Positions 4,648 to 38,639 of a stretch of 38,639 nucleotides of DNA are shown here, piece after piece. Every line of letters starts with the position of its first letter. Position 1 is the stretch's first letter. The DNA comes from Phycisphaerae bacterium (GTDB taxonomy: Bacteria > Planctomycetota > Phycisphaerae > Sedimentisphaerales > Anaerobacaceae), in assembly GCA_030601745.1 (NCBI GenBank), contig JAUWBI010000029.1:1-38639 (forward strand), written 5' to 3'. A program made the translations under genes and the position numbers. A model generated the notes under the pieces. It was not told the origin of the DNA, did no database searches, and saw only the letters and a list, made by a program, of their open reading frames with translations.

Positions 4648-5588
4648 ATTAGCTACCCAGATTAACAGAATTGAAAACTAAAATTATCGTGATTTAGCGG
4701 GAAATAGGGTTTTTTTGGCTTATTTTTTCGGGGGCAACGTTGGTTTTGGGGGTAAAAACGGGGGCGGGGGGATTGGGTTTGATTGGGTTTGTTTTCACCA
4801 AGTGTCCAATTGGATTTATTTTCATAAGCCACTGTATGAATAGACTTTACGTTCATTTGAGTATCCAGCAAATTGGGTTTGTTTTGCATAAAAAGGTGCG
4901 ATTTGTCGAGGATTCTCGACAGATGTAGAGCGACGATAGGAGAGAGTAAAGCGAGGAATTTGTGGGTCCTCTGTTTCGAGGTCAAGGAGCAGCTTCTCGA
5001 GGATAAACTCCGGTTGTATGGGTTGAGTCCGGATTGGTTAACTGGTTCATTGGTTAACTGGTTCATTGGTTAATTGGTTATTGGCTTGGCCTGTTTTTTG
5101 GCCGGGGGCGAAAAAGACGGCCCTCTATAATTGGGCGAACCTGCGCGTTTGAGTCGAAAATTCGGGCTTTTTTGACAGGATAAACAGGATTAACTCGTTG
5201 TCAGAAAAGGAGTAAAAAAAATTTTAGAAAAATCTAAATTTTCTAAAAACTACCCACACTTTTGATTGAAAATTGGCGAAATTTTTAGCTGTTTTACCGC
5301 CGAGAACGCTGAGGCCGCAGAGAAATAATCAATAATCAATAGTAAATAATGAATCGATTTTCCCTTTGACTTTTGCCTTCTTTTTAGGTATTTTTTACCC
5401 CGTGAGATAAAACACCCAAGGGCGCAATACTTCCTCGAATCGTCTGTTTGTCATTCCTGCGAAAGCAGGAATCTATACGAGATACGAGCGATGAGCGACA
5501 AGCTTTGGATTCGTATTTCAAGATTAGGGAGACGCAACAGATGATAGAGAACCGGCAGGTCTATTTTGAACAACCGGGGCGTTGGGTT
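4648..5588. repeat. Repeat-rich intergenic region without convincing gene
   Basis: From left to right: copies of the 'AAATTGGGTTTGTTTTGCAT' family around 4755-4889; a 16-bp tandem TGGTTAACTGGTTCAT at 5035-5050 and 5051-5066 with a diverged third copy to 5082; an ACCGCCGAGAACGC...GCCGCAGAGA segment around 5297-5324 of a type also seen inside ftsK and near 38571; an AATAATCAATAATCAATAG segment around 5325-5345; and a perfect 8-bp hairpin ATTCCTGC-GAAA-GCAGGAAT at 5453-5472. Reading frames here are made of repeats and are not called. Confidence 0.7.
4755..4889 (-). repeat. NKPN-type dispersed repeat, short array
   Basis: Read on the minus strand from 4889, the DNA translates as MQNKPNLLDTQMNVKS, then GENKPNQTQS. 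The same peptide-like pattern and underlying DNA recur in four units at 38059-38390. Units here are about 60 bp apart and less regular. Confidence 0.65.
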
Positions 5589-22566: not shown

Positions 22567-24144
22567 TTATGGTATATTTAGTGGGTCGATATCCCTGATC
22601 CGCTCGGCATAAATCTCGTATGAATATTTTTTCAGGAGCTCTTTTCTGTAGTTTTCCAGGATTGTGTTTCTTTGTTCGTCCTGCATTACCATTTTGATAT
22701 GGTCTTTCATACTGCTTGAGTATTCTTTCAGTTTGCCGGGCGTCTTTTCTAATATTTTAACGATGCGCCACTTGACCCCCCCGCGGTAGAAGCCCTTTAC
22801 CGGCCCAACTATTTCATTCGGCTCGCCATTCCATAAGTCCTTGAAGAATATTCCTTCGCTGCGGGGATAAGCATTGAAGGTATATGCTTTTTTTTGCAAA
22901 GAGAGCTCTTTTCTGACTGCCTCGAAATCCTTTCCGCTGTCTAATTCGTCTTTGACTTTCTGAGCCGTTTTAAGGTCTTGACACCAGATTTGGTCAATCC
23001 TGAGGGTCTTCTGGGTTCCGAATTCCTCCTTGTTTTTCTCGAAGTAGGCCATTATCTCCTGCTCGTTTGGTTCCGAAACCGCCTTGCGTTTTTCGCGGGT
23101 GGCTTTGCTGAGCAGGCGCATATCTTCCTGCTCTTTTATTTGCTTCAGCAAATTTTCATCCTTGTCGAGTCCGAGTGACTCGGCCTCAGAGATGAAAATG
23201 TGCCCAGGCCGGATCCTCAAGGCCCTGTTTAGTAACCGTTCAACGCCCGCTACGGTATGCAAATCCCTCGGACGGGACGGTGGAGACATTTCACACAAAG
23301 TATCGAACCAGTCCTTCAATGTTACTTTTCCGGTATCATACGCTGCCAGAACAATGTTTTTCTCTTCCGGCGTCAATTCATTTTTTATTTGACGGATGCG
23401 GATAAGTCTCATTCTGCGGGGCTCTTTCGGGCGCAGCAGCAGTCTTTGATGGATTCGGGCTGCTTCGGGGAAATTACCACTTAACTTTTGAAGATGGAGC
23501 TTTTCACAGAGCTCTTTGTAATACTGACTTAAGATGATGTTGGCCTTTGCCCTTTCGACCATTGTCCTTGCGCGTGCTCGGTTTAGCTTAGGGTCGGTTT
23601 TCATCTTTTCGTCAATTTCTGATTCCGCAACTATTATTTTTCCTCGCAGGTGGGTTTCCAATAATAAGGTTGCCAGCTTTTTTTGCTTAAATTTCTTAAG
23701 CAGCGCATGGATTGTTTCATCTTCCAGATAGTTGAGCTTTCGAGCTTCTATCACCATCGCTTTTTCAGCTATCATTTTCGCAAGTACGGTTTTTGCGTCC
23801 ACCGGCTCGTCTTGTTTGCTATAGTCTTCGTCCTGTGGTTGCAGCTCCATCATTAGTTGCTTCCGGAGCTCTTCTTTTGTGATGACGTACTCGCCTATTT
23901 TCGCAACGATATTTGACGGCCCGGCTGGGGCTGCGGGTTTTGTTTTGCTTTCGGCGACTTCGCCGGGATGTTTGGCCTCCGGCGGCTTTGTCTCAATGGC
24001 TATTGGTTTGCCGGCTGTATCGATTGTCGCTTGTTCGGTCGTCTCGCCCCGCCCCTGCGGCAGGGGTCGGGTCTCGCAGGAATGGCAAAGCAGTATTAAC
24101 AGGCCCAGAAAAGATAAAGCCGATTTGCTCTGAAATAATTTCAT
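22567..24144 (-). CDS. SurA-like periplasmic chaperone / peptidyl-prolyl isomerase lipoprotein
   Basis: A 525-residue protein with a lipoprotein-type signal (FLGLLILLCHSC, lipidation at Cys20 or Cys23). A Pro/Lys-rich linker follows. The chaperone domain IVAKIGEYVITKEELRKQL, then AKMIAEKAMVIEARKLNY, is the SurA/PrsA N-terminal signature. The C-terminal part (KNKEEFGTQKTLRIDQIWCQ, LDSGKDFEAVRKELS, GIFFKDLWNGEPNEIVGPVK) resembles a parvulin PPIase domain, though the middle is poorly conserved and activity is uncertain. It would fold exported proteins. GGAG lies eight bases before ATG. It is divergent from the large protease at 24553, a plausible client. Residues TRPLPQGRGE just after the lipobox come from a hairpin CCCCTG-CGG-CAGGGG (24052-24066). 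Confidence 0.75.
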   Translation of the reverse strand: MKLFQSKSALSFLGLLILLCHSCETRPLPQGRGETTEQATIDTAGKPIAIETKPPEAKHPGEVAESKTKPAAPAGPSNIVAKIGEYVITKEELRKQLMMELQPQDEDYSKQDEPVDAKTVLAKMIAEKAMVIEARKLNYLEDETIHALLKKFKQKKLATLLLETHLRGKIIVAESEIDEKMKTDPKLNRARARTMVERAKANIILSQYYKELCEKLHLQKLSGNFPEAARIHQRLLLRPKEPRRMRLIRIRQIKNELTPEEKNIVLAAYDTGKVTLKDWFDTLCEMSPPSRPRDLHTVAGVERLLNRALRIRPGHIFISEAESLGLDKDENLLKQIKEQEDMRLLSKATREKRKAVSEPNEQEIMAYFEKNKEEFGTQKTLRIDQIWCQDLKTAQKVKDELDSGKDFEAVRKELSLQKKAYTFNAYPRSEGIFFKDLWNGEPNEIVGPVKGFYRGGVKWRIVKILEKTPGKLKEYSSSMKDHIKMVMQDEQRNTILENYRKELLKKYSYEIYAERIRDIDPLNIP

Positions 24145-24222
24145 CGTGTGTACTCCTTATTTAAATGTTCAGGTTTTTTGCCGAATAGAGACCGTGGTGG
24201 CCTGGCTAAGTTGTAAGTGATT

Positions 24223-24520
24223 CGTGCCTGAGTGCAAGCCACAACGCAACTTTGGCCTCAAATAAAGCTTTTACAGGTTTAATTATAACCTCTCTGTCGG
24301 GATTAGGCAAGTTAAATTGCCCGGGCACCCTCGGTTTTTGGCCATCACAGGCCCATTGGCAGTAACGCCGTTGTTTTTAGGGACTGCTGCACTATAGCCC
24401 CGTGTTTCTACCGGAAAAGTGGAAAGATTGAAAAGTTTCCTTGGTTTTCGTGGAGAGAGTTTGCTATAATTAAGTTTCCCTGCAAGTTGAAAGTCAAGTT
24501 GTGGCTTGCACTCAGGCACG
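24223..24520. repeat. MITE-like or regulatory region bounded by 23-bp perfect inverted repeats
   Basis: The left arm 24223-24245 and right arm 24498-24520 (ends ...GCACTCAGGCACG) are exact reverse complements, and similarity fades inward. There is no obvious target duplication outside (GTAAGTGATT versus GACCGGTTAC). It is 298 bp end to end. Confidence 0.6.
24441..24470 (+). promoter_or_regulatory. Candidate promoter of the S8 protease gene
   Basis: -35 TTGGTT (24441-24446), 18-bp spacer, -10 TATAAT (24465-24470), 82 bases before the start codon. The consensus -10 is the strong part. Confidence 0.5.
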
Positions 24521-24552
24521 GACCGGTTACAGTACTGAAAGGAGGAGGCCAT

Positions 24553-27500
24553 ATGTTAAATCCGAAGCTCGAATATCGAAATCCGAAACAATATCAAAAT
24601 TCGAAATTCAAATGTTCAAAACGCTCGGTTTCGAATTTTATATTTTGGTCATTCATATTTGTTTCGTGCTTCGGATTTCGAATTTCGGATTTACCCGCCG
24701 TCGTGTGTCCTCTCAAAACGCCATCTCAAGAGTTTTATGATTACATTATTACGGTAGGAAACGAGGAGCTTCGGTTTGTACGCTGCCCAGAGCTGGGATA
24801 TGTTGTAAAGTCACAAGAGCAAACAACTGCGATTGAGGCTTTAGATGAGACGTTGAGAGAGTTTGGGGCCGGGGATGTAAGGCCGGTCCGTGGGTTAGGC
24901 CGGCGAGGTGTTTCGGTTGTGTTCAGCGAGCGTCCAGCCGATGAAAACGAAAATACTATCAGGATGCTCAGGGCCCGGAGCCGGATTAGGTATGCAGCGC
25001 CGCTGTTTTGCGCCCGTGGCGAGACGGCAGCTATCATACCGGAGATTGTTGTTCGGGTAACGGCCGAAACGGATGCAGAACATCTCCAGACGGTCTGCCA
25101 AACAATGGACTTGACTATCAAAAAGAGGCTGGAATTTACGCACTGTGAGTATCTCATAGAAGTTCTGGGAACGGATGCAAGTGCGGTATTCGCTGCTGTT
25201 GAGCAACTTAATCAAATTTCGTTTATTGAGTGGGCGGTTCCGAACGTCGCCTTTCGCCCCCGGTTTTGTGGGCAAGTTATCCCAAATGACACCTATTTCC
25301 CCAATCAGTGGCACTTGAACAACACGGGGCAAGCCGGCGGCACGCCCGATACAGATATCGACGCACCGGAGGCGTGGGAGGTCAGCACGGGAGACCCTGA
25401 TATTGTGGTTGCCGTAGTGGATTCAGGGGTAGATACCGACCATCCCGATTTAATTAACAACATCGTGCCGGGATATGATTTTTATGATGATGACAATTCG
25501 CCTGAACCTTACGGAGATGACGCCCACGGCACGGCCTGTGCCGGGCTGATAGCAGCCCAGGGAAACAACGGTCTTGGCGTTACAGGTGCTGCGTGGAACT
25601 GTAGGATAATGCCCATCCGTATCGTAGACTGGGCAGAAGCAGGACTTATCACCGAGGCAGATGTAGCTGCCGCCTTTCGTTGGGCGGCTGAAAATGGCGC
25701 TGATGTCCTCAGCAACAGTTGGGGTTCGTCCTGGCCATTGCCCGTAGTTCGCTCTGCCATAGCGGCTGTTACCGCGCCGGGTGGAACAGGACGCAACGGG
25801 AAAGGCTGTGTTGTCCTGACCGCCTCAGGGAACTGGCCGAGTGGCGGCCCCGTCTGGTATCCCGCGAAGTACCCTGAAGTCATCGCAGTCGGCGCCACAA
25901 ATCGGAACGACGTAGTCTGGAACTACAGCAGATGTGGGCCTGAACTGGACATCGTCACGCCGAGCGGGGCGGCATACGACTGGGGAGCTGATTTTAATCT
26001 CTGGACAACAGACATCGCTGGAAGCGCCGGATGGAACAAATACAACTGCAACCCTAATATATTGGACTATACAGACCAGATGGGAGGCACCTCCGGGGCC
26101 TGTGCGATTGCGGCTGGGGTAGCAGCCCTTATTCTCTCTGTTGACCCGAATTTGACCAATGTACAAGTGCAGAGCATTCTGCAAATATCTGCCGTTGATT
26201 TGGGCGAGCCGGGCAGGGACGACTATTACGGATATGGTCGTGTGGATGCCGGGGCAGCGTTGGCTCTGGCGCAGGCACTGCCACAAACGCTATTTGTTGA
26301 CGATAGTGCTCCCGATGACCCCGGCCCGGGAGACCCTGCTATCAGTGACCCGCTGGAGAACGGCTCGGCCGAGCACCCCTTCGATGCTATTCAGGAAGCC
26401 ATTGACGCCACCATCCCCGGAAAAACCGTGATTGTCCTGCCCGGAACCTATACCGGCAATGGCAACCGCGATATCGACTTTGGCGGAAAGGCCATTACCC
26501 TGCGAAGCACAGACCCCAATGACCCCAATATCGTTGCTGCAACGGTAATTGACTGTAACGGCACCGAAGCTGAACCACATCGGGGTTTCTACTTCCACAG
26601 CGGCGAAGATGGGAATGCCGTTGTAGATGGGCTGACAATTAAAAACGGTTATGACAGACAGGGCGGGGGGATATACTGTATTGGCAGCAGGCCGACAGTA
26701 AACAACTGCACCTTCAGCGGGAACTACGGCAGTGGGATCGTCTACAACTACTGTGGCGGGCCGATACTGACCAACTGCATCTTCAGCGGGAACTCGGCCA
26801 GGTGGGGCGGCGGGATATGTAACTACTACAGCGGCACGACACTGACTAACTGCACCTTCAGTGAGAACTCGGCCAAGTGGGGCGGCGGGATGTACAACTC
26901 CTGGAGCAACGACTACTACGGTATCGCCACACTGATTAACTGTGTGTTCAGCGGCAATTCCGCTGGTAGTGATGGCGGTGGGATGCACAATTACTACAGC
27001 GAGCCGGTGGTAACAAACTCCATTTTCAGCGGCAACTCAGTCGCCAGCGGTGGTAAGGGGGGCGGGATGTTCAATCAAAATTCTTCTTCAACGCTGACCA
27101 ATTGCACCTTCAGCGGAAACTTAGCTGGCGCCGGCGGCGGGATGTACGACCGCAGCAGCAGCGCCACGCTGACCAACTGCATCCTCTGGGGCAACATGAG
27201 TGTAGGCGGAACGGGCGAGACCGCGCAGCTCCAGACAGACGGCGAAGCCCTGGCCGTCAACTACTGTTGCATTCAGGGTTTGACGGGGGTGCTGGGCGGC
27301 ACTGGCAATATCGGCGATGAGCCGCTGTTCGTGCACGCCGGCGGAACCGATACCCTGCTCGGCACAGAGGATGACAACCTGCGTTTGCTGCCTGGCTCGC
27401 CCTGTGTCGACGCGGGTGATAACTCGGCGGTTCCGCCGTTCCTGCTTACCGACCTCGACTTAGAGCCACGCTTCACCGATGACCCTGATACCCCGGACAC

Positions 27501-29913
27501 AGGTAACGGGATGCCACCGATTGTTGACATGGGGGCATACGAGGGTCCTGATCAGGGATTTTTGCTGAACACGAAGTCCGTCACGGTTCCGGAGGGACAG
27601 ACAGCAACGTTTACGGTGGCGCTGGCGGTTGACCCTCATGGAACTGTCGAGGCAGCGGTAGCCGTCGAGTCGGGTGACCCCGACATCACGGTTCACTCGG
27701 GCGCATTGCTGACTTTCGATTCGTCCAACTACTCGCAGCCCCAAAGAGTTACAGTTGCGGCGGCCGAGGATGAGGACCGGCTCGAAGATGCTGCGGGCAT
27801 TCGAATCAGCGCAGGCGGTAAGTTTTTTGCTGGGGTGATTGCCTGGGAGATTGAGAACGACGTTGCTGCCGTGCTCTTTGTCGACGCCAATGCAAACGGC
27901 GCAAATGATGGTATGAGTTGGGCCGACGCTTTCAACCAGTTACAGGATGCGATACCGTTGGCGACCGGTGCCCCGCGCGCCGTTGACGAGATTCGGGTAG
28001 CTGAGGGCATTTACAAGCCCGACCAGGGCGGCGGAGTCACACTTGGCGACCGCTCGGCCACGTTCGAACTTATCAGCGGCGTGGCCATTTGCGGTGGCTA
28101 CGCCGGTGCGTCAGATCCCAATGCCAGGGATATCGACGTATATGAAACTATCCTCAGCGGCGACCTCAACGGCGACGACATCGAGGTTGCCGACCCTGAA
28201 GACTTACTGGACGAGCCCACCAGGGGCGAGAATAGCTATCGCGTTGTTACCGGTAGCCGGACCGACCCCAACGCCATCCTCGACGGCTTCACCATCACCG
28301 CTGGTAATGCGAACGAATATTATCCTTCCCCACGTGCGAGCGGCGGTGGGATGCTCAATTACAACGGCAGCCCAACTCTGGCCAACTGCACCTTCAGTGA
28401 GAATGCGGCACGAATCTTCGGCGGCGGGATGTTCAACGACAACGCCAGTCCAACGTTGACCAACTGCACGTTTAGCCGCAATTGCGCTGGGTGTGAGGGC
28501 GGCGCGATGTATAACGACAACAGCAGCTCGACCCTGACCAACTGCACCTTCAGCGGAAACTCGGCTGGTGATAGGGGCGGTGGGATGCACAACGACAACA
28601 GCAGCTTGACAATGACCGACTGCACCTTTAGCGGAAACTCGGCTGGCGACAGGGGCGGAGGGATGCACAACGACAACAGCAGCTTGACAATGACCGACTG
28701 CACGTTTAGCCGGAATTGGGCTGAGCGCGAGGGCGGCGGGATGCACAGTAGCGGTTCCACCCCGACCCTAACCAACTGCATGTTTAGTGCGAACTCGGCT
28801 GGCTGGGACGGCGGCGGAATGGACAATTATGAAAGCAGCCCGATGATTACGAACTGTACGTTCAGCGAAAACTCGGCTGTCGGAAACGACGGTGGTGGAA
28901 TGAACAATTACAGAAGCAGCCCGGTGATTAGCAACTGCACCTTTAGTGGCAACTCGGCTAATGACTGGGGTGGCGCAATGCGCAACGTCTTCTCCAGCAG
29001 CCCGACGATTAGCAACTGCGCCTTCGTTGAGAACTTCGCTAAAGGCGACGGTGGCGGGCTGTTTAACTACTACGAAAGCAGCCCAATGATTACCAACTGC
29101 ACATTTGCTGGGAATTCAGCCCCCAACGGAAGTGCTTTCGCTTGCGATTCTTTCGGGCAGGGGCATTGGAGCAACGTTCGGGTAAGCAACTGTATTCTCT
29201 GGGATGGTGGTGACGAAATATGGAACAATGACAATTCGGCGTTCACGATAACCTACAGCAATATCGAGGGTGGCTGGCCCGGCGAAGGCAATATTGATGC
29301 CGACCCGTGCTTTGTTGAACCAGGATATTGGGACCCTAATGGAACACCTGAAGACCCCAATGATGATTTCTGGGTTGATGGCGATTATCATTTGCTGCCG
29401 GATTCGCCGTGCATAAACGCAGGCGACCCAAATTACGCAGGCGACCCAAATTACGCAGGCGACCCAAATTACGCAGGCGACCCAAATTACGCAGGCGACC
29501 TGAACGGGACAGATTTAGATGGCAAGCGCCGTGTAATTGGCGGCCGAATCGATATGGGAGCTTTCGAGTACAGGCCCTCAACACCGGCCGAGGTGGATAT
29601 TGACCCCGATATCCTTAATCTGACAAGCAAGGGTAATTGGATTACCTCACTTATCTGGCTCCACGAAGATTACAGTGTTGCTGATATTGACCCCAACAGC
29701 GTTTTTCTTGAGGACGAAATTCGAGCTGACTTGTTCCGGGTCAATGAAGAAGGGCAAGTTGCCATAGCTAAGTTCAGCCGCTCAGAGGTTCAGGGTATTC
29801 TCAACCTTGGCTGGGTCAAGCTGACAGTCAGCGGCGAGTTGACGGACGGAACCGTATTTGAGGGCACAGATGTAATTAGAGTGATAGATAAAGGCGGCCG
29901 AAAATCGCCATAG
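24553..29913 (+). CDS. Secreted subtilisin-like (S8) protease with parallel beta-helix repeats
   Basis: A 1786-residue protein. GGAGGAGG precedes ATG 24553. Residues 1-~50 are encoded by an AT-rich repeat but include a hydrophobic stretch (FIFWSFIFVSCFGFRIS) that can serve as a signal sequence. After a propeptide-like region, the S8 catalytic triad is Asp290 (VAVVDSGVDTDHPDL), His325 (DDAHGTACAGLIAA) and Ser514 (GGTSGACAIAAGVAAL). Then come a pectate-lyase-like beta-helix with many NCTFSGNSA turns, a Calx-beta-like segment (KSVTVPEGQTATFTVAL), a second beta-helix array, a GDPNYAG tandem and a C-terminal module beginning EVDIDPDILNLTSKGNWITS that is common in planctomycete surface proteins. 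The helices may bind polysaccharide or protein; the target is unknown. No sorting tail is visible. Confidence 0.9.
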   Translation: MLNPKLEYRNPKQYQNSKFKCSKRSVSNFIFWSFIFVSCFGFRISDLPAVVCPLKTPSQEFYDYIITVGNEELRFVRCPELGYVVKSQEQTTAIEALDETLREFGAGDVRPVRGLGRRGVSVVFSERPADENENTIRMLRARSRIRYAAPLFCARGETAAIIPEIVVRVTAETDAEHLQTVCQTMDLTIKKRLEFTHCEYLIEVLGTDASAVFAAVEQLNQISFIEWAVPNVAFRPRFCGQVIPNDTYFPNQWHLNNTGQAGGTPDTDIDAPEAWEVSTGDPDIVVAVVDSGVDTDHPDLINNIVPGYDFYDDDNSPEPYGDDAHGTACAGLIAAQGNNGLGVTGAAWNCRIMPIRIVDWAEAGLITEADVAAAFRWAAENGADVLSNSWGSSWPLPVVRSAIAAVTAPGGTGRNGKGCVVLTASGNWPSGGPVWYPAKYPEVIAVGATNRNDVVWNYSRCGPELDIVTPSGAAYDWGADFNLWTTDIAGSAGWNKYNCNPNILDYTDQMGGTSGACAIAAGVAALILSVDPNLTNVQVQSILQISAVDLGEPGRDDYYGYGRVDAGAALALAQALPQTLFVDDSAPDDPGPGDPAISDPLENGSAEHPFDAIQEAIDATIPGKTVIVLPGTYTGNGNRDIDFGGKAITLRSTDPNDPNIVAATVIDCNGTEAEPHRGFYFHSGEDGNAVVDGLTIKNGYDRQGGGIYCIGSRPTVNNCTFSGNYGSGIVYNYCGGPILTNCIFSGNSARWGGGICNYYSGTTLTNCTFSENSAKWGGGMYNSWSNDYYGIATLINCVFSGNSAGSDGGGMHNYYSEPVVTNSIFSGNSVASGGKGGGMFNQNSSSTLTNCTFSGNLAGAGGGMYDRSSSATLTNCILWGNMSVGGTGETAQLQTDGEALAVNYCCIQGLTGVLGGTGNIGDEPLFVHAGGTDTLLGTEDDNLRLLPGSPCVDAGDNSAVPPFLLTDLDLEPRFTDDPDTPDTGNGMPPIVDMGAYEGPDQGFLLNTKSVTVPEGQTATFTVALAVDPHGTVEAAVAVESGDPDITVHSGALLTFDSSNYSQPQRVTVAAAEDEDRLEDAAGIRISAGGKFFAGVIAWEIENDVAAVLFVDANANGANDGMSWADAFNQLQDAIPLATGAPRAVDEIRVAEGIYKPDQGGGVTLGDRSATFELISGVAICGGYAGASDPNARDIDVYETILSGDLNGDDIEVADPEDLLDEPTRGENSYRVVTGSRTDPNAILDGFTITAGNANEYYPSPRASGGGMLNYNGSPTLANCTFSENAARIFGGGMFNDNASPTLTNCTFSRNCAGCEGGAMYNDNSSSTLTNCTFSGNSAGDRGGGMHNDNSSLTMTDCTFSGNSAGDRGGGMHNDNSSLTMTDCTFSRNWAEREGGGMHSSGSTPTLTNCMFSANSAGWDGGGMDNYESSPMITNCTFSENSAVGNDGGGMNNYRSSPVISNCTFSGNSANDWGGAMRNVFSSSPTISNCAFVENFAKGDGGGLFNYYESSPMITNCTFAGNSAPNGSAFACDSFGQGHWSNVRVSNCILWDGGDEIWNNDNSAFTITYSNIEGGWPGEGNIDADPCFVEPGYWDPNGTPEDPNDDFWVDGDYHLLPDSPCINAGDPNYAGDPNYAGDPNYAGDPNYAGDLNGTDLDGKRRVIGGRIDMGAFEYRPSTPAEVDIDPDILNLTSKGNWITSLIWLHEDYSVADIDPNSVFLEDEIRADLFRVNEEGQVAIAKFSRSEVQGILNLGWVKLTVSGELTDGTVFEGTDVIRVIDKGGRKSP
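24556..24702 (+). repeat. AT-rich inverted repeat forming the protease N-terminus
   Basis: The left half AAATCCGAAGCTCGAATATC and on, and the right half ending TTCGAATTTCGGATTT, are largely reverse complements (the AAATCCGAA...TTCGAA words recur on both strands). Base composition differs sharply from the rest of the gene. Confidence 0.65.
29425..29496 (+). repeat. Four perfect 18-bp tandem repeats in the protease gene
   Basis: The unit GACCCAAATTACGCAGGC occurs four times without mismatch, coding DPNYAG four times. A loss or gain of units keeps the frame. Confidence 0.95.
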
Positions 29914-37947: not shown

Positions 37948-38639
37948 CTCGACGCTCGTAAAAAATGGCCGGCGGCGAGTGATTAACCAATAACCGGTTG
38001 ACAGTTCGCAGCAGCACTTAGCGACAATTATAAACAATAAACGGAGCCAAAGGTACAGAAATTGGCTTTGATTGGGTTTGTTTTTTCGGAGCCTTAAGGC
38101 GGTCTCATTCTCATAATCCTTTGTTAAGACTGAGTTTGCATTCATTTTGGCCTCTGCGAAATTGGCTTTGTTTTGGCTTTGTTTTTTCATAGCTCCTATC
38201 CGCATTTTTCTTCATAATCCTTTGTAAATACACACATTGCATCAATTTTACCCTCTGGCAAATTGGCTTTGTTTGGCTTTGAATTGGGTTTGTTTTTTTG
38301 GACTGCAAACGCATCATTTTTTCTGTAATCCTTTGTTATAAATGAGTATACGTTCATTTGGTCTTTGAGGAAATTGGGTTTGTTTTGCATAATTGACTCA
38401 TAGCCACAAAGCCACTGAGGCACAAAAGAATATAGCCACAGAGAACACTCGTCTCGGCGCAGGCGCGAGCCGTAGCCGGACAGAGAAAACACTCGTCTCG
38501 GCGTAGACGCGAGCCGTAGCCGGAGATTATTCAATAATATTCCACCACAGATTTCACAGATTTCACCGATTTTTTGGGCCACAGAGGGCACAGAGGACAC
38601 AGAGAGATAATCAATAATCATTCACGAGGTCATCCCGAC
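37948..38639. repeat. Repeat-rich end of window
   Basis: No convincing gene. It holds the NKPN-type tandem array (38059-38390), two 36-bp near-identical copies (38445-38480 and 38489-38524, two mismatches, 44-bp period) and a CCACAGAGG/ACACAGAG repeat followed by ATAATCAATAATCATTC (38571-38625). Confidence 0.7.
38059..38390 (-). repeat. Four-unit tandem NKPN-type repeat (period ~100-111 bp)
   Basis: Anchor AAATTGG occurs at 38059, 38159, 38260 and 38371 (spacings 100, 101, 111). Each unit also holds CATAATCCTTTGT or a close variant and TTGTTTTGG/TTGTTTTTT. Read on the minus strand the units translate as QNKPNFLKDQMNVYS-FITKDY, NKANLPEGKID-FTKDYEE and NKANFAEAKMN-VLTKDYEN, in different reading frames. 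A short related array lies at 4755-4889. Confidence 0.75.

Follow-up and report, generated by a model that had tools for sequence, protein, structure and literature searches.

The start of a large protease gene in a planctomycete genome raises the question of where the DNA of a new signal peptide comes from. The window that we analysed (38,639 nucleotides, JAUWBI010000029.1) corresponds to contig C21 in a draft, metagenome-derived genome of 3.45 Mb from an uncultured Phycisphaerae bacterium (GCA_030601745.1), and the gene in question (24553..29913, + strand) encodes an intact protein of 1,786 amino acids (aa) with no internal stop, in which an S8 subtilase domain (PF00082, E 2.9e-52, residues 283-562) is followed by right-handed β-helix repeats (PF13229, E 3e-37). 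An initial annotation had proposed that about 50 codons behind the start codon derive from an AT-rich inverted repeat, that its second arm encodes the export signal of this enzyme, and that a signal peptide was thereby born from repeat DNA. The repeat origin and the secreted type of the enzyme were borne out, whereas the comparison with homologous genes points to the partial replacement of a signal that already existed.

The repeat at the protease start

The gene is preceded by a Shine-Dalgarno run, AGGAGGAGG (24540..24548, + strand), located 4 bases upstream of the ATG at 24553; positions 24540-24555 read AGGAGGAGGCCATATG, followed by AAATCCGAAGCTCGAATATCGAAATCCGAAACAA, and the strong ribosome site that had been described ahead of the repeat is thus present. 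Because the homologues L041, L074, L080, and L082 (see below) also carry AGGAGG upstream of their ATG, this run is probably ancestral. Directly behind the start codon, codons 2-47 consist of an in-frame, 136 bp copy of a dispersed inverted repeat (24557..24692, + strand). The left arm (24558..24605, + strand) (AAATCCGAA...) is made of CGAA-NNN units and encodes the basic n-region NPKLEYRNPKQYQNSK, and the right arm (24652..24692, + strand), which is the inverse of the left arm, contains TTGTTTCG and then TTCGGATTT, ending at 24692 (inverted pairs I2, I5, and I6). Homology to the repeat stops at 24692/3 and the gene's own sequence begins with codon 48; the extent originally given for the repeat-derived segment, 24553-24702, was correct to within about 10 bases. 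The predicted fold of this copy was somewhat better than that of shuffled sequences (z -2.55).

Searched as DNA against the same genome, positions 24553-24702 gave 79 matches on many contigs, and the repeat was found in about 25 other places in the draft, nearly all of them between genes. The best other copy, C113:4653-4789, is intergenic and 88% identical over 137 bp (query 4-140). A translated match to the repeat was present in 85 of the 161 genomes of the order Sedimentisphaerales. Given the 79 same-genome matches and these order-wide relatives, the repeat is more than a chance pattern.

Homologous proteases and the ancestral signal

In the order's genomes, a search yielded 13 distinct homologues whose 5′ ends are complete. 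Each begins with an ordinary signal of the Sec type (MTKRSWTVTFILSVLLVLLCALKSTAQ followed by DPSGYVV in L071 and MNHFGRIISTALCILFLLFSTSSQAQ followed by SPSEYVI in L041, for instance), and none of them carries the repeat. The closest homologue, L071 (57% over 213 aa), aligns with the window protein without gaps from CALKSTAQ / CPLKTPSQ onward, through CALKSTAQDPSGYVV / CPLKTPSQEFYDYII. The CPLKTPSQ stretch (24706..24729, + strand), which is aligned with CALKSTAQ of L071, appears to be the c-region of the ancestral signal peptide, persisting behind the repeat, and the ATG likewise looks inherited. In this alignment, the repeat-derived segment falls exactly on the signals of the homologues and is about 30 residues longer.

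Because the homologues' signals sit at this position and the c-region survives behind the repeat, the alignment indicates that a signal was already in place and that its n- and h-regions gave way to the repeat. As judged from these sequences, this is signal turnover and not birth from nothing, and the proposed birth of a signal peptide does not stand. We regard the origin of the segment from the repeat, together with the replacement of the ancestral n- and h-regions, as highly probable.

The sequence of events would then be as follows. A copy of a mostly intergenic inverted repeat would have landed in frame directly behind the start codon of the subtilase gene; the ancestral n- and h-regions would have been lost, with the ribosome site and ATG retained in front and the c-region retained behind; and the resulting hybrid signal of 49 to 58 residues most likely still directs the enzyme through the Sec pathway. 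The sequences show the repeat origin, the frame, the ordinary signals of the homologues, and the surviving c-region; how the insertion took place, how the old n/h segment disappeared, and that the new segment works are the steps that we infer. Taken as a whole, an in-frame repeat replacing the n- and h-regions of a secreted subtilase's Sec signal, with export most likely kept by the hybrid, is the account that we favor, with reasonable but not strong confidence.

Signal-like properties and rival explanations

The signal-likeness of the segment was judged by hydropathy, charge, and cleavage-site rules. The predicted h-region, FIFWSFIFVSCFGF (residues 29-42; 24637..24678, + strand), has a mean Kyte-Doolittle hydropathy of 2.27 over its best 12 residues (FIFWSFIFVSCF), compared to 2.15-3.31 for the signals of the homologues, and it is preceded by an n-region of 28 residues with a net charge of +6; the repeat-derived N-terminus does, as had been suggested, resemble a Sec signal. 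A candidate signal peptidase site, SDLPA/VV (residues 49/50; 24697..24702, + strand), with A at -1 and L at -3, is predicted 7 residues past the hydrophobic core. When the repeat was shuffled 4,000 times with dinucleotides preserved, 478 shuffles were open, of which 29 were equally hydrophobic, and none of the 4,000 combined a basic first half with an equally hydrophobic second half, by criteria set after seeing the sequence. On these properties, the repeat-derived segment is a plausible signal peptide, and if the repeat origin and the replacement are granted, we think it rather likely that the segment works in export.

Why inverted AT-rich repeats may suit export can be explained simply. The reverse complement of AAA/AAT/CGA-rich DNA is TTT/ATT/TCG-rich, and Lys/Asn codons reverse-complement to Phe/Ile; therefore, reading through an A-rich arm and then its T-rich inverse gives a basic (Lys/Arg) stretch before a hydrophobic (Phe/Ile) one, arranged as in a signal peptide. 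When both strands of 59 copies were read, an open, signal-like layout was found in 8 of 108 readings in the frame used in the window and in 14 of 324 readings in all frames. The nearest sister copy, L002, which is intergenic, has the same layout in the window frame and a hydropathy of 2.61, above that of the window copy. Since an intergenic sister copy shares this layout, it is a property of the lineage of the repeat, and no later tuning has to be assumed.

Four observations weigh against export by the hybrid signal or against its proposed history. Only the 8 of 108 window-frame readings mentioned above are as signal-like; an n-region of 28 residues is unusually long; the ancestral candidate cleavage site, TPS/QE, lies 16 residues past the new core, too distant for normal cleavage, so that either the LPA/V site or no cleavage has to be assumed; and the protease gene was not found in the two genomes of the same genus, which are 54% and 69% complete.

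The strongest competing explanation is that the insertion broke the ancestral signal, that export is absent or poor and the gene is decaying, and that the hydrophobicity is incidental to the AT richness of the repeat. The ancestral n/h-region is indeed gone, the old cleavage region is displaced, and about 1 in 14 readings of copies in the window frame are signal-like without a known function. However, the other ~1,740 codons are intact with both the S8 and β-helix domains present, and the hydropathy is within the range of the homologue signals. Many random hydrophobic N-termini function as signals, which also counts against decay, and we consider this explanation unlikely.

Less probable still is that the repeat segment serves as an uncleaved N-terminal membrane anchor or as a lipoprotein signal. 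The charge distribution is strongly positive-inside, the old cleavage region is far away, and FIFWSFIFVSC matches the lipobox pattern, but the cysteine of this lipobox-like IFVSC is residue 39, past the usual limit of 15-35 in the PROSITE rule, the ~14-residue core is short for an anchor, and the homologues resemble ordinary Sec-secreted proteins.

An assembly error that joined a repeat copy to the wrong gene start would be conceivable in a draft metagenome genome with many copies. However, no other copy in the genome exceeds 88% identity to the window copy, and error is unlikely because exact words shared with the same-genome copies that were retrieved do not exceed 28 bases; moreover, no stop interrupts the frame on either side of the copy, and the family also occurs in another genome, G248, where the listed copies share a single 4.3-Mb contig. 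We therefore give an assembly error very little weight. Least credible of all is a real start at GTG 24703 (24703..24705, + strand), the sole later in-frame start nearby, with the repeat as an untranslated leader: the gene's own homology does begin near 24703, but this codon lacks a ribosome site, whereas AGGAGGAGG lies 4 bases before ATG 24553, and translation from it gives a protein with no hydrophobic segment (maximum hydropathy 0.66) and thus no signal peptide, although all homologues have one.

Several other repeats were observed at this locus. A 42-nt inverted repeat (83%; 24212-24253 and 24490-24531, enclosing 236 bp) sits between the protease gene and a divergent SurA-like isomerase gene (22567-24144, - strand); as a candidate genome-wide family it was rejected, being locus-specific with just a weak partial match elsewhere in the genome, on C121. 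Within the protease gene, the β-helix is built by a coding repeat of 75-84 bp (TNCTFSGN...GGGM; 26677-28998) that is present about 15 times, and two blocks among these copies suggest recent amplification. Near the C-terminal part, positions 29417-29506 hold a perfect 18-bp tandem repeat (ACGCAGGCGACCCAAATT) that encodes DPNYAG units.

The repeat family, other gene starts, and known parallels

An alignment of L001 1505-1640 with 39 other copies gave the architecture of the family: CGAA-NNN units of 7 bases are arrayed in two inverted blocks, each ending in CGAAACAA toward the center, and the middle is variable. Neighboring CGAA words are exactly 7 apart in 224 of 238 cases, and the NNN triplets are drawn from a small set (ATC, ATT, GCA, TAT, and ACT). 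These triplets are uncorrelated between the arms and the consensus fold is weak; therefore, a hairpin conserved by compensatory changes was rejected. No Rfam family matched the repeat at the gathering score.

The family spans several phyla, patchily. When the phylum was sampled evenly, the core word CGAANNNCGAAATCCGAAACAA was found in 4 of 119 genomes, with 11 copies on one contig of G248 (all of the copies listed for that genome are on its 4.3-Mb contig), and reversed-pattern controls of this word gave no matches in the same sample. Related arms were found in Planctomycetota, Verrucomicrobia, Lentisphaerae, Desulfobacterales, and others when 84,980 species genomes were scanned. As judged by flanking open reading frames (ORFs), nearly every copy lies between genes, in many cases within a few bases of a gene end, and one copy in the window's own genome (L025) lengthens the C-terminus of a glycosyltransferase-like ORF (...KLKSEIRNTKSETNTKF).

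The flanks of 59 copies gave no clear signal of a target-site duplication, the mark of a MITE: the longest direct match was 5.05 compared to 4.83 in shuffled flanks, and 10 of 200 shuffles were as high. At one locus (L101, ~1501-1800, G033:C168), a copy is flanked by an imperfect duplication of about 30 bp with a ribosome site and start (GGAGGGC..GCTGATGCGCGA.AGAA), as if a gene start had been doubled on insertion. A link to the RAYT/REP system was also rejected, the two weak Y1_Tnp (PF01797) matches in the genome being ~5 kb from the nearest repeat and not flanking it. A second dispersed repeat, T-rich (AAATTGGGTTTGTTTT), was observed on both sides of the window (4701-4891 and 38058-38392), and its words also occur beside a CGAA repeat in L100.

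Three further cases place the repeat at gene starts. In G102, a lipoprotein ORF directly behind ribA has an ATG, the repeat, and then a hydrophobic lipobox segment, and its homologues have the same start position after ribA without the CGAA repeat. In a TA06 bacterium, a lipoprotein-like ORF has AGGAGGACATATG, the repeat, and NRTIERFLLISLCLFLIVSC in one frame, and the locus stops after 113 codons. In G040, the copy in L140 (G040:C63:10248-16367, - strand) separates pstS from pstC and seems to supply both the last codons of PstS (GEIQNSKLEIRNKSK, then the stop) and the first ones of PstC (MTKPQNSKR...), stop and start overlapping as ATGA; CAAATGACC recurs often in the family. These cases, each of which depends on the assignment of a start codon, suggest recurrence at gene starts. 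A broader reading, which we consider doubtful, is that the CGAA-NNN family has repeatedly served as a portable source of export signals: its A-rich/T-rich inverted design would by itself encode basic-then-hydrophobic peptides, and copies that landed behind start codons would have rebuilt or extended signals several times independently (the window protease, G102, and TA06).

A Shine-Dalgarno run, ATG, and repeat as a common gene start was rejected: this arrangement was found in 4 of 161 genomes of the order and in 25 stretches among the 84,980 species genomes, most of which were non-coding or due to chance. Long open frames through copies in G064, G061, G040, G103, G033, and G108 were likewise set aside as noncoding, upstream of the real start, or at the 3′ end of a gene. 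Among the homologues of the G102 lipoprotein, L201, L205, and L208 have a low-complexity start (GATTTGCGATTTGCGATT, MDLRFAICDLR), and this start family (GATTTGCGATTT / DLRFAICDLR) is limited to this gene rather than dispersed.

The closest parallel is the enterobacterial repeat RU-2, which forms part of the predicted signal of YPO1552, the signals of homologues in other genera being unrelated (Delihas 2007, PMC2759123). As in that case, the N-terminal segment of the protease is a copy of a dispersed repeat and the signals of the 13 homologues are unrelated to it; unlike that case, the repeat sequence and lineage are different, the protein is a 1,786-aa protease rather than a 144-aa putative exported protein, and the surviving ancestral c-region here reveals the replacement of an existing signal. 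The idea is the same as for RU-2/YPO1552, but the repeat family itself seems to be undescribed, as its words and peptides gave no description in the open-access literature.

Rickettsia palindromic elements (RPEs) are ~150-bp palindromes found in frame inside protein-coding genes, with nearly half of them within genes (PMC10969869). The 136 bp window copy is like an RPE (100-150 bp, inverted, in frame in an ORF), whereas the CGAA family has another sequence, is mostly intergenic, and touches just gene ends in the cases seen. Frequent insertion into unrelated genes in a preferred frame, as for RPEs, was not found for this family, the frame and stops of its copies varying. The family also resembles REP/BIME elements, which are mobilized by RAYT transposases, in being dispersed intergenic inverted repeats, single or in inverted pairs. 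REP elements are GC-rich, whereas the CGAA-NNN units are AT-rich and the weak Y1_Tnp matches are not flanked by the repeat.

Signal peptides evolve fast, and the raw material of a new one is rarely seen. At this locus, the sequences reveal the donor repeat, the old state (in the 13 homologues), and the hybrid state alike. If the segment does direct export, mobile-like repeats would be a ready supply of secretion signals.
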